DNA of 64,000 bases from Lancefieldella sp. Marseille-Q7238 (GTDB taxonomy: Bacteria; Actinomycetota; Coriobacteriia; Coriobacteriales; Atopobiaceae), in the NCBI RefSeq assembly GCF_949152215.1, contig NZ_OX424407.1, positions 624,530 to 688,529 on the forward strand, read 5' to 3'. Under the pieces are notes generated by a model. The model saw only the letters and a program-made list of their open reading frames with translations. It ran no database searches and was not told where the DNA came from. Of the stretch, positions 5,938-58,149 are shown piece by piece. The stretch's first letter is position 1. Each line of letters begins with the position of its first letter. The position numbers and the translations under genes are program-made.

Positions 5938-6771
5938 TCATTGCTCCCACGGTTGCAACATCCCCTGCGGATATGAAACGTCAACAAAGGTCAGTCCCTT
6001 CGCCGGCGCGGTTGGCCCAGCGGCGCACCTATCGCACGCGAGAAGTACCTCGTGTACCCAGCTCTGCGCTCGATGTCCGCGTCCAACCTCAACAAGCGTG
6101 CCAACAATAGTTCGCACCATCGTATGCAAAAAGGCGTTTCCCTTGATGTCGAAAGCGATGATTTTCTCGCCTGCCTCGTCAATTTCCACAACCGAAATAT
6201 GCTCGACATAACGGTGCGTCGGTTTGTCGACGGCTGAGACAGCCTTGCAAAAACTCTTAAAATCATGTTCGCCAACAAGTGCCTGAGCAGCAGCGTTCAT
6301 AGCCGAAACGTCAAGGGCGCCGCTGTACCACCACGCATGATCCCACGCCAATACCGGGCGCGGCCCCGCGGCAACGCGATACCGGTAGCTTCGTGACAGA
6401 GCGTCGAAACGTGCCGAGAAACCCTCGGGAGCCCGATAGAGATCGCGGATGGAAATATCATCATCGGTAAGCGCGTTCAGCGAACGCATGAGGCGCGTGG
6501 CAGGAATTGCCGCTTCCTCTGTCAAAACAGGCACGCTTATGTACTGCGCCAACGCCGATACGCCCGCGTCAGTCCTTCCCGCACAGGCGAAATCAACCTC
6601 ACGTCGAAACATCGTTTCCAGGGCGCGGCGCAGCTCTCCAGCAACGGTACGCTCTCCAGGCTGCTCGGCGAAACCGGAAAACGCGGCGCCGCGGTAGCCA
6701 AGCTTTATTCCAAGCGTACCTGCTGAAAAGACAGATTCGCGACACTCGACAGCCTCATCCGTTTTGCACAT
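5938..6771 (-). CDS. truA: tRNA pseudouridine synthase A
   Basis: TruA converts uridines 38-40 in the anticodon stem-loop of many tRNAs to pseudouridine. The 277-residue protein has the catalytic aspartate in the invariant CAGRTDAGV segment (Asp68) and the family's RSYRYR segment in the middle. An N-terminal extension of about 20 residues precedes the usual GIKLGYRGAAFSGF start of the fold, so the true start could be slightly internal. It is the last gene of the rplQ-ecfA-ecfT-truA string, an order also conserved in Firmicutes. Confidence 0.95.
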   Translation of the reverse strand: MCKTDEAVECRESVFSAGTLGIKLGYRGAAFSGFAEQPGERTVAGELRRALETMFRREVDFACAGRTDAGVSALAQYISVPVLTEEAAIPATRLMRSLNALTDDDISIRDLYRAPEGFSARFDALSRSYRYRVAAGPRPVLAWDHAWWYSGALDVSAMNAAAQALVGEHDFKSFCKAVSAVDKPTHRYVEHISVVEIDEAGEKIIAFDIKGNAFLHTMVRTIVGTLVEVGRGHRAQSWVHEVLLACDRCAAGPTAPAKGLTFVDVSYPQGMLQPWEQ

Positions 6772-6805: not shown

Positions 6806-7588
6806 CTACAAGATTATGCAAGCCGCTGCGACAATTGCCAACACCAACCCTAACACTATCCAGCCGCATGCGCGCGGCGCCGAAAGCAGGCTCGTGCGCG
6901 GAGCCGCTCCAAAGGCTCGATCTGACAGAGCTCGCGCGAGCTCTTCAGACCGACGGAAAAGCGATACCACCAGAGGTACCAGCACGGAAAACCAGGATTT
7001 GAGCTCTGAAAGAACTGTACGCCGGGCTGTCGCGCCGCTTCTGATCAGCTGCGCCGTACGGATGCGGTCAAGCTCTTCCATAGTAATCGGGATGAAGCGC
7101 AAAGCGATTGAGACCATCATCGAAAACCCGTCAACATCCAGCCCGAACTTTGAAAGTGGCTTCAAGACACGAGTAAGCGCCGCGCTTACCTCAGTCGCCG
7201 ATGTTGTCGCGGAGCAAACCAGAACGAAGCCGAGTGCAAGCGTCATACGAGCAACGGCCCAAACTCCACGCAGAGCTCCCGCGTACGAGAGACCCACCGC
7301 GCCTAGGCGCACATCGGGAGCTCCTACGACTACCAACGTATTTGCCGCAAGTGAAGCTATCAGCACCACAGTCAGAGGCTTGAGCGCGCGAACCACGGTA
7401 AGCGGGGCGGTTTTTGACGACGCAAGCGCTACGGCCAAAAGCGCTGTCATGCAGGCTATGCCCAAAGGCGGACGGGCAGCAAACGACCCCACCACACAGA
7501 CGCACAAGGCGAGCAATTTGATACGGGGATCAAGCTGATGAAGAGGGGTGTTGGCGATGCGATAGACACCGAGACCGTTCTTAGTCAT
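6806..7588 (-). CDS. ecfT: ECF transporter transmembrane component EcfT
   Basis: EcfT is the membrane scaffold of energy-coupling-factor transporters, linking the two ATPases to interchangeable substrate-binding S components for vitamins or metals. The 260-residue protein has several hydrophobic segments, and its C-terminal cytoplasmic part contains the coupling-helix region with short Ala-Arg-X motifs (ARA near 207, APR near 222). I chose ATG at 7588 (MTKNGLG), which overlaps the ecfA end by 8 bases. A longer frame upstream is a reading of ecfA in another frame. No S component gene lies nearby, so this is the shared-module type (group II). Confidence 0.88.
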   Translation of the reverse strand: MTKNGLGVYRIANTPLHQLDPRIKLLALCVCVVGSFAARPPLGIACMTALLAVALASSKTAPLTVVRALKPLTVVLIASLAANTLVVVGAPDVRLGAVGLSYAGALRGVWAVARMTLALGFVLVCSATTSATEVSAALTRVLKPLSKFGLDVDGFSMMVSIALRFIPITMEELDRIRTAQLIRSGATARRTVLSELKSWFSVLVPLVVSLFRRSEELARALSDRAFGAAPRTSLLSAPRACGWIVLGLVLAIVAAACIIL

Positions 7589-25317: not shown

Positions 25318-25369
25318 CAGGGTTAACGCTGGGACGAGAAGGGCTTCTCGCCATGCCTTTTGAAAAAGC

Positions 25370-42776: not shown

Positions 42777-42807
42777 AAAAAAGAGGCCGGACAAACGCCC
42801 GGCCTCT
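42777..42807 (-). terminator. Intrinsic terminator of rplJ-rplL
   Basis: A perfect nine-pair stem (AGAGGCCGG with CCGGCCTCT, 8-base loop) is followed by six T in the transcript direction. It lies 58 bases beyond the rplL stop and separates rplJ-rplL from rpoB. Confidence 0.9.
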
Positions 42808-42818
42808 GATGTCAAAAA

Positions 42819-42846
42819 CAGGAGCGAGAAGTACTTCTCGCTCCTG
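42819..42846. repeat. 28-base perfect palindrome built from two GCGAGAAGT words
   Basis: CAGGAGCGAGAAGT meets its own complement with no loop, between the rplL stop and the terminator. The centre is a head-to-head pair of the recurrent word GCGAGAAGT described in the findings. It may form a hairpin, bind a dimeric protein, or be a paired recognition sequence. Confidence 0.85.
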
Positions 42847-42864
42847 CGTATGTGAAACCCTCGT

Positions 42865-43248
42865 TTACTTAAGGGTAACGGAAGCGCCAGCCTCTTCGAG
42901 CTTAGCCTTAGCAGCCTCAGCATCTTCCTTCTTCGCGCCCTCGAGGACGGCCTTAGGAGCGCTCTCGACAACCTCTTTTGCCTCCTTGAGGCCAAGGGAA
43001 GTCAGCTCACGGACAACCTTGATGACGGCAATCTTGTTGTCGCCGAAGCCCTCGAGAACAACGTCAAAGTTGGTCTTCTCCTCAGCAGCGCCAGCGTCAG
43101 CGCCACCAGCTGCAGGAGCAGCGGCAACCGCTACAGGAGCAGCGGCGGAAACGCCGAAGACATCCTCAAGCTCGTGAACGAGCTCAGAAAGCTCGAGGGC
43201 GGGCATCTCTTTCAGGGCCTCAATGATCTCATCTTTAGTGACAGCCAT
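42865..43248 (-). CDS. rplL: 50S ribosomal protein L7/L12
   Basis: The flexible stalk protein that recruits translation GTPases. The 127-residue protein has the N-terminal dimerisation domain ([15 protein letters not shown]), an alanine-rich hinge (about 35-52) and the C-terminal domain ([20 protein letters not shown] onwards). It follows rplJ and is followed by a palindrome and a terminator. Confidence 0.97.
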
Positions 43249-43868: not shown

Positions 43869-43928
43869 TCAGTACACCTCCTTCATTCACGCATCAGGCA
43901 CGAACGCCACGCGGTTAGCCCTCTACAT

Positions 43929-44040
43929 GAAAAGACCTCGCTCTGCAACCAAAGCGAGGTCTGAGGATACTATCTTCAAGACCACCTCGGCAGGCGGGAG
44001 AACCCTTTAAGCCTTATCGGCACCGGCTGTCTTTGGCAGC
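43929..44040 (-). ncRNA. L10 leader (ribosomal protein leader with attenuator hairpin)
   Basis: The transcript contains the L10 leader hallmarks AAGACAGCCGGTG (44033-44021) and CGCCTGCCGAGGTG (about 43996-43983), which form the L10-L12 binding fold. They are followed by a perfect ten-pair hairpin (AGACCTCGCT with AGCGAGGTCT, 43933-43962) and TTTT. It lies 60 bases before rplJ. Excess L10 binding the leader should favour the terminator; this is the Firmicutes-type mechanism. Confidence 0.8.
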
Positions 44041-44101
44041 GGACGTGCAAATGCAAGACAGGCGTCTTGCGGATGATATTCTCCCACGCAATCCCCTGTC
44101 G

Positions 44102-58040: not shown

Positions 58041-58149
58041 AGTCCGTTACAGTAAAGTATACGGGTTTTTATCAATCACGCCGCGAGAAGTGCAAGCCGC
58101 TTAGACATCAGGTTCTTCTCGCCCCGTCAAAGCGCTTCTCGCCGTATGT
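58041..58149 (-). promoter_or_regulatory. clpC-disA intergenic region
   Basis: It contains three copies of the recurrent GCGAGAAG word (58083-58090, and as complement at 58115-58122 and 58135-58142). A -10-like TATACT near 58057-58062 and TTGATA near 58070 may provide a disA promoter, but spacing is not ideal. Confidence 0.45.

Follow-up and report, generated by a model that had tools for sequence, protein, structure and literature searches.

An inverted pair of a genome-wide, uptake-sequence-like word in a terminator-like palindrome behind rplL of Lancefieldella sp. Marseille-Q7238

The palindrome behind rplL and its hairpin

The window, by which we mean the whole 64-kb stretch of the Lancefieldella sp. 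Marseille-Q7238 genome that was analyzed, carries on its minus strand the gene for 50S ribosomal protein L7/L12 (rplL, 42865..43248). Eighteen bases behind the stop codon of rplL, the gene preceding it in transcription, lies a 28-base perfect palindrome (42819..42846, with no strand of its own), CAGGAGCGAGAAGT followed directly by ACTTCTCGCTCCTG. This is exactly where a preliminary description of the sequence had placed a perfect palindrome made of two facing copies of a recurrent word. No other perfect palindrome of the window is as long, and the chance expectation for one of this length in 64 kb of uniform sequence is approximately 0.00024. The runner-up, AGAGCTCGCGCGAGCTCT at 6927-6944, has 18 bases and no relation to the word. 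Upstream of rplJ, at 43921-44054 on the minus strand, a classical L10 leader was recognized (Rfam L10_leader, RF00557, with 55.7 bits, which exceeds the gathering score).

Two overlapping copies of a word found throughout the genome, GGCGAGAA-R-NN-C, meet head to head in the palindrome and are framed by a 5-bp outer extension (CAGGA/TCCTG). The plus-strand copy, GCGAGAAGTAC at 42824..42834, fits the 12-base consensus GGCGAGAARNNC from position 2 and has A rather than G at position 1; the minus-strand copy occupies 42831..42841, and the two share the four bases GTAC at 42831-42834. Within this overlap the C at position 12 (C12) of either copy is the complement of the G at position 9 (G9) of the other, and both arms consist of the word from position 2 onward, C12 included. 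A gap of two bases between the octamers satisfies both copies because they overlap by four bases with C12 complementing G9, and the absence of a loop is incidental since the two central bases are the unconstrained NN of the word. The recurrence of GCGAGAAGT that had been claimed earlier is real, the window having 10 copies where dinucleotide shuffles give 0.87, but the full word is longer and gapped. The window holds two further pairs: GCGAGAAG-N24-CTTCTCGC at 58083..58122, 27 bp behind a stop codon, and a pair with one mismatched arm (GCGAGAAGCCCTTCTCGT on the minus strand) at 25334..25351, 18 bp past the end of a minus-strand gene; neither feature is assigned a strand.

On the strand of rplL, a TTTTT run directly adjoins the palindrome on its 3' side, and a second hairpin, which ends in a T tail, comes next. 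When folded as RNA, the pair formed a stem of 13 bp closed by a GUAC loop (-23.1 kcal/mol, z -6.3), a result that does not support the earlier view that a zero-loop palindrome would favor a dimer or cruciform over an RNA hairpin. An operator or cruciform was likewise rejected as a reading of the zero loop: the center is the free NN of the word and varies among the nine pairs of the same spacing in the genome (see below). The stem comprises 12 Watson-Crick pairs and an outermost G-U pair, which takes the first U of the UUUUU run. The locus hence displays a stable G+C-rich hairpin with a direct U run behind a gene end, as in an intrinsic terminator, and the element at 42814..42847 (minus strand) is a probable first intrinsic terminator of rplJ-rplL. 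The second, at 42777..42807 on the same strand (hairpin 42807-42782), is an ordinary terminator with an 11-bp stem and a T tail that does not contain the word. The rplL pair is therefore probably a co-opted first member of two tandem terminators, with predicted termination. A strong terminator does follow the palindrome, as had been described, but the palindrome with its TTTTT is terminator-like in itself. A simple scan for terminators reported the second hairpin but left out that of the palindrome, perhaps on account of the outer G-U pair. Rfam returned no match above threshold at the palindrome; sub-threshold matches to SorY and SorX spanning both hairpins (34.2 bits where the gathering score is 111, and 18.2 bits where it is 46.6) were taken as chance.

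A gapped word enriched throughout the genome

The form of the word was derived by comparing samples of four genomes: this one, G001, G018 and G006 (Olsenella sp. An188). The CGAGAA core is strict and the GG before it semi-strict. A purine usually occupies position 9, positions 10 and 11 are free, and position 12 is mostly C. We write the gapped 12-base consensus as GGCGAGAARNNC. Single changes inside CGAGAA reduced the enrichment from 20-fold to 0- to 5.5-fold in the sample of the study genome, which comprised 464 kb (20 stretches of 20 kb and the window). A few changed words with tiny expectations are still enriched in the relatives, such as GGGGAGAA with 8 copies in G001 and 18 in G018. C was found at position 12 after GGCGAGAA in 158 of 197 copies in the study genome, 74 of 79 in G001, 147 of 152 in G006 and 109 of 118 in G018; at position 9, A was slightly more frequent than G in the low-GC G001, and G predominated in the other three.

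The most overrepresented 7-mer of the 464-kb sample under a third-order Markov model was CGAGAAG (518 copies, 121 expected), and by the same model GCGAGAAG occurred 250 times against 39.5 expected. Over the whole genome GGCGAGAANNNC was counted 537 times, 267 forward and 270 reverse, and the reversed pattern 56 times; the recurrent word noted earlier is hence real at the genome scale, with uptake-sequence-like statistics. The density of the strict word is about 0.34 per kb. The uptake words of Neisseria or Haemophilus reach approximately 0.8-0.9 per kb, and the density observed here is lower. The word was present in every stretch of the genome sampled, with Poisson-like spacing (variance/mean 1.05 in 2-kb bins, masked bins included); an apparent word desert in one stretch was an artifact of masked bases. 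Elements of the REP/MITE type have a longer conserved sequence and are mainly intergenic; here, by contrast, 118 of the 157 strict copies in the sample are inside genes, and beyond the 12-base word only weak flank preferences were seen in three relatives.

Neither the codons nor the strand account for the word. In the sampled genes of the study genome, GGCGAGAANNNC occurred 118 times, against 15.0 (sd 3.0, max 22) over 30 synonymous-codon shuffles, and in antisense 64 times against 5.6. The same shuffle test gave 57 vs. 4.0 in G001, 91 vs. 23.9 in G006 and 68 vs. 21.2 in G018. Moreover, the share of GCGAGAA copies followed by C12 was constant across contexts in the study sample: 84 of 112 in frame (75%), 29 of 39 in other frames (74%), 116 of 154 antisense (75%) and 64 of 90 intergenic (71%). 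The synonymous shuffles in all four genomes tested, together with the constant C12 share in the study sample, refute a codon origin of the strict word. Density was higher between genes than within them (0.50 vs. 0.30 per kb in the study genome; 1.29 vs. 0.54 in G006); gene calls were made with our own script (84% coding) rather than taken from the annotation, and masked bases in one stretch of the study genome, one of G018 and a few short contigs of G006 make the densities slight underestimates. When the orientation of replication was taken from the GC skew of each stretch, 135 copies of GCGAGAANNNC were leading and 159 lagging (p 0.18).

Several other repeats were encountered. The 464-kb sample holds the repeated 12-mers CCAAAAAAGTGC (11 copies) and AGTTGTGATAAA (9 copies), and one copy of a repeat of this type adjoins an inverted word pair (L078, just after 18080). 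One word copy lies within an apparent tandem repeat of unit gtacttgcatgtaggtgcacgcgaggcgagaa (L017, near 523444 of the genome), and GCGAGAA forms a head-to-tail 7-base repeat of at least three copies in L069 (~6537-6558). Repeated 12-mers unrelated to the word, possibly from CRISPR or tandem repeats, were seen in the samples of G018 (CCTTCGTGTGAG, 15 copies; AATTGGGGACGT, 10 copies) and G006 (TGCAGGTTGCGG, 13 copies).

Inverted pairs, related genomes and prophages

The preliminary description had asked whether inverted pairs of the word occur behind genes elsewhere in the genome, and a genome-wide listing of pairs with their distances to stop codons showed that they do. The genome contains 23 pairs of the form GCGAGAAG-N(0-30)-CTTCTCGC; word abundance leads one to expect about 3.8, and the reversed control gave none. 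Four of the pairs are within genes and 19 are intergenic, 14 of the latter lying no more than 100 bp past a stop codon. Nine pairs have a gap of exactly two bases, against an expectation of about 0.12; their centers are TA (two), TG/CA (four), TT (one) and CC/GG (two), and of these nine the TA pairs alone are perfect palindromes. A T run of at least four within 12 bases, on the strand read from the upstream gene, accompanies only 4 of the 23 pairs, and the longest such run among the four belongs to the rplL pair. Most pairs in this genome are not classical terminators.

We also counted GCGAGAA pairs spaced 2-30 bases apart in ten other word-rich genomes: 64 in G018, 44 in G002, 43 in G006, 35 in G060, 32 in G003, 31 each in G001 and G077, 28 in G032, 12 in G089 and 8 in G014. 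The reversed controls of these genomes gave 0-3 pairs, and six word-poor genomes 0-2 pairs. In the sample of the low-GC G001, five of seven pairs are intergenic, all five followed by T runs on the transcribed strand. Behind rplL, G003 carries GCGAGAAGATCTTCTCGC, which is the same pair with a different center but lacks both the 5-bp outer stem and the T tract. Among 30 rplL loci of the study genome and its relatives (29 examined by script, and L059 read by eye over 130 bases), a pair lies no more than 220 bases past the gene only in the study genome and in G003, and among 80 named rplL loci there was one with a variant pair. The rplL pair is not deeply conserved.

The word itself is widespread among relatives. 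We counted GGCGAGAANNNC and its reversed pattern in 111 whole genomes. The same-species genome G060 gave 562 vs. 58, and the same-genus genomes 688 vs. 43 (G002, Atopobium sp. BS2), 499 vs. 28 (G001) and 559 vs. 38 (G003). Copies ranged from 422 to 1653 across the 12 genomes searched of genus g4, the highest count standing against 50 reversed, and from 651 to 1033 in genera g16, g29, g30 and g12. Several genera were near background, for instance G030 with 26 vs. 29. The form GSCGAGAAGNNC gave 1426 vs. 86 in Olsenella sp. An285 and 1147 vs. 55 in Olsenella sp. An290. In 23 genomes from other families of the order, a G-variant, GGCGAGAAGNNC, occurred 2-80 times, and 179 times in G051, with controls of 3-45.

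Retention of the word was compared in the rplL regions of three same-genus species, over 39-45 kb of the window that could be aligned. All seven fixed letters of CGAGAANNNC were kept in 44 of 58, 23 of 48 and 29 of 52 aligned copies, whereas control words with one letter changed were kept in 75 of 192, 42 of 176 and 46 of 195 (p 7e-7, 0.0014 and 1e-5 for CGAGAANNNC against these single-substitution controls). An earlier and looser control, with random positions in the same gene and phase, points the same way. For prophages, a portal-family search found a phage portal gene in 2 of 22 word-rich genomes, with the proviso that other prophages with different portals may exist, and the comparison rests on these two (G003 and G107), whose limits were checked with PHROGs, using 10 chosen proteins each, after the word counts per 4 kb had been seen. 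CGAGAARNNC occurred 15 times in one prophage against 54.0 expected from the flanks (p 2e-7) and 6 times in the other against 28.3 (p 8e-6). The strict word was scarce in the G107 prophage (1 vs. 12.5 expected, p 6e-4); in that of G003 its scarcity was not significant (4 vs. 7.6, p 0.17). Since the core word is scarce in the two prophages and the word is kept by the host, neither base composition nor a cell-wide mutation bias offers an easy explanation for it.

A candidate DNA uptake sequence and its competitors

The observations correspond to those made on DNA uptake sequences: (i) a short word is strongly overrepresented genome-wide (537 vs. 56), (ii) it occurs in both orientations, inside and between genes, and does not stem from codons, (iii) it is common to related species, with variants, (iv) inverted pairs are found near gene ends (23 pairs, with 14 of the 19 intergenic ones behind a stop codon), and (v) the host possesses DNA-uptake machinery, namely ComEA, ComEC, Tad-type genes and DprA. 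As far as the portions of the sources available to us go, the uptake sequence (DUS) of Neisseriaceae is a short word that recurs hundreds to thousands of times, inside genes as well as between them, extends across the clade with variants and forms inverted pairs where genes end (Frye 2013, PMC3630211; Kingsford 2007, PMC1852404), and the word described here resembles it on each of these points: it is abundant, lies in and between genes, is clade-wide with variants, and forms inverted pairs at gene ends. Its sequence is nevertheless unrelated and gapped, with a distant C, and its hosts belong to a different phylum with a different cell envelope. The uptake signal sequence (USS) of Pasteurellaceae is, in the extracts consulted, a host-specific overrepresented word found partly in terminators (PMC1852404; TerminatorNet 2026, PMC13020248), and the likeness extends to both properties; however, the USS is AAGTGCGGT and its hosts are Gram-negative. 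The USS is also reported to have A/T-rich flanks (PMC1852404, in part), whereas none were seen at the word in the flank columns of G006, G018 and G001.

As regards the machinery, comEA (SLBB and helix-hairpin-helix domains) and comEC are present in the genome, as is DprA. Elsewhere in the genome lies a tad/flp-type cluster encoding a SAF-domain protein (CpaB-like), a ParA-like protein (TadZ-like), T2SSE (TadA) and two T2SSF proteins (TadB and TadC); the SAF, ParA-like, T2SSE and T2SSF genes scored above the Pfam cut-offs, and Flp- and TadE/G-like matches below the curated ones. ComEC was found in 57 of 60 genomes, word-rich and word-poor alike, and DprA in 10 of the 10 searched. No apparent correlation of the word with ComEC, with DprA or with how many T2SSF genes a genome has was seen, all being near-universal in the genomes searched; their presence in word-poor relatives as well demonstrates capacity and not specificity. 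In Micrococcus luteus, also an actinobacterium, transformation is mediated by Tad/Flp pili together with ComEA/EC, according to the accessible part of that study (PMC4322843), and the study genome similarly combines ComEA/ComEC with a tad cluster. M. luteus, as described there, requires two tad loci, whereas only two adjacent T2SSF genes were found in the study genome, and the term "uptake sequence" is absent from the M. luteus paper.

On balance, we favor the view that the word is DNA uptake-sequence-like, that it is preferred by a receptor of a Tad/Flp and ComEA/ComEC machinery, and that the rplL pair has been co-opted as a terminator. With slightly less assurance, we lean toward a broader proposal as well, in which the Atopobiaceae, as monoderm Actinomycetota of mouth and gut, would have independently evolved an uptake-sequence system wherein a receptor associated with a Tad/Flp pilus or with ComEA reads GGCGAGAARNNC; transformation among conspecifics would spread the word, and overlapping inverted pairs of it would have been co-opted in transcript 3' ends, that of rplJ-rplL among them. 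That DNA with the word is taken up preferentially, that a receptor recognizes it and that transcripts end at the rplL pair in the cell are inferences, the uptake step being drawn from the likeness to DUS and USS. A surface DNA receptor of the Tad/Flp-pilus and ComEA/ComEC competence machinery would prefer DNA bearing the word, and conspecific DNA with the word would be imported more often. Recombination following repeated within-clade transformation would then spread, repair and maintain the word, and copies would accumulate in every frame, on either strand and in the spacers between genes, being kept in relatives and scarce in prophages. Close inverted pairs would arise often and might be recruited as 3'-end hairpins; behind rplL, such recruitment would be well advanced, the hairpin there having five more base pairs as well as a U5 tract.

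Three other explanations are possible and were ranked below the uptake reading. The word might be Chi-like, recognized by an enzyme of the AddAB, RecBCD or AdnAB type that protects or recombines host DNA, with the prophages not having accumulated it. It is short, abundant and host-enriched as Chi is, scarce in the two prophages and found inside and between genes. Chi words are typically strongly oriented, and the leading- and lagging-strand counts (135 vs. 159, p 0.18) revealed no such orientation with replication. We know of no Chi word that is gapped over 12 bases with a distant fixed C or that forms head-to-head pairs at gene ends, and these untypical features add to the reasons for which we judge a Chi-like role unlikely. 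Equally unlikely, in our estimation, is a binding site of a nucleoid-organizing or chromosome-segregation protein, although the strict gapped motif, the symmetry of the strands, the Poisson-like spacing (variance/mean 1.05) and the retention in relatives would suit one. The known sites of such proteins occur in small numbers or are restricted to the ori or ter regions, whereas the word numbers approximately 500-1650 per word-rich genome and occurs in every stretch sampled of the study genome; the pairs behind stop codons would also be left unexplained. That the word marks self DNA for defense or modification, either sparing host DNA from a nuclease or serving as a methylation site, would agree with its host enrichment and its scarcity in prophages. 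Modification sites are normally not overrepresented in genomes, and the overrepresentation of the word would tell against this role, which we consider improbable.

The rplL element might alternatively be a plain terminator hairpin or the operator of a dimeric protein, its likeness to the genome-wide word being coincidental. We regard this as very improbable despite the strong hairpin and U5 tract behind rplL: both arms fit the word including C12, the architecture with a 2-base gap recurs nine times where about 0.12 would be expected (and pairs overall 23 times where about 4 would), and behind rplL of G003 the pair recurs with another center and with neither the outer stem nor the T tract. That a codon or amino-acid effect (Gly-Glu-Lys, GGC GAG AAG) produces the word can practically be dismissed, given the synonymous shuffles (15.0 vs. 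118 observed; antisense 5.6 vs. 64) and a C12 equally fixed outside the coding frames, even though in-frame GAG-AA copies form a sizeable class (112 of 396 GCGAGAA in the sample), shuffled genes of the high-GC G006 and G018 still contain 21-24 copies, and outgroup genomes show a mild excess.

With regard to the uptake reading, two genome-wide terminator surveys mention, in the passages at our disposal, no families with uptake words besides Neisseriaceae and Pasteurellaceae (PMC1852404, PMC13020248), and the available text of two further papers (PMC1939737, PMC6370729) adds no other family with uptake words. Our search of the literature outside subscription journals and preprints found no uptake sequence for Actinobacteria/Actinomycetota, Coriobacteria, Olsenella or Atopobium, and the same literature yielded no relevant work on natural transformation or competence in Coriobacteriia or Atopobium. 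Provisionally, then, the word has not been described before as an uptake-type sequence. If the uptake reading is true, it would be the first uptake sequence for this branch of bacteria and, going by the partial texts cited, a third and independent case, in a monoderm phylum, after the Gram-negative Neisseriaceae and Pasteurellaceae. A third case would separate general traits, such as self-marking by repeated transformation and re-use as terminators, from the particulars of ComP-type pili. Oral and gut Lancefieldella and Olsenella would be predicted to be naturally transformable, which would offer a practical handle for their genetics, and the gapped consensus makes the question of the receptor directly testable.

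Lastly, near rplL in three relatives, namely Olsenella An290 (L135), an Atopobiaceae MAG (L154) and Olsenella An285 (L156), CC replaces GC before GAGAAG, and such CC-type copies, for example GCCGAGAAGTGC, hint at dialects of the word in their branch.
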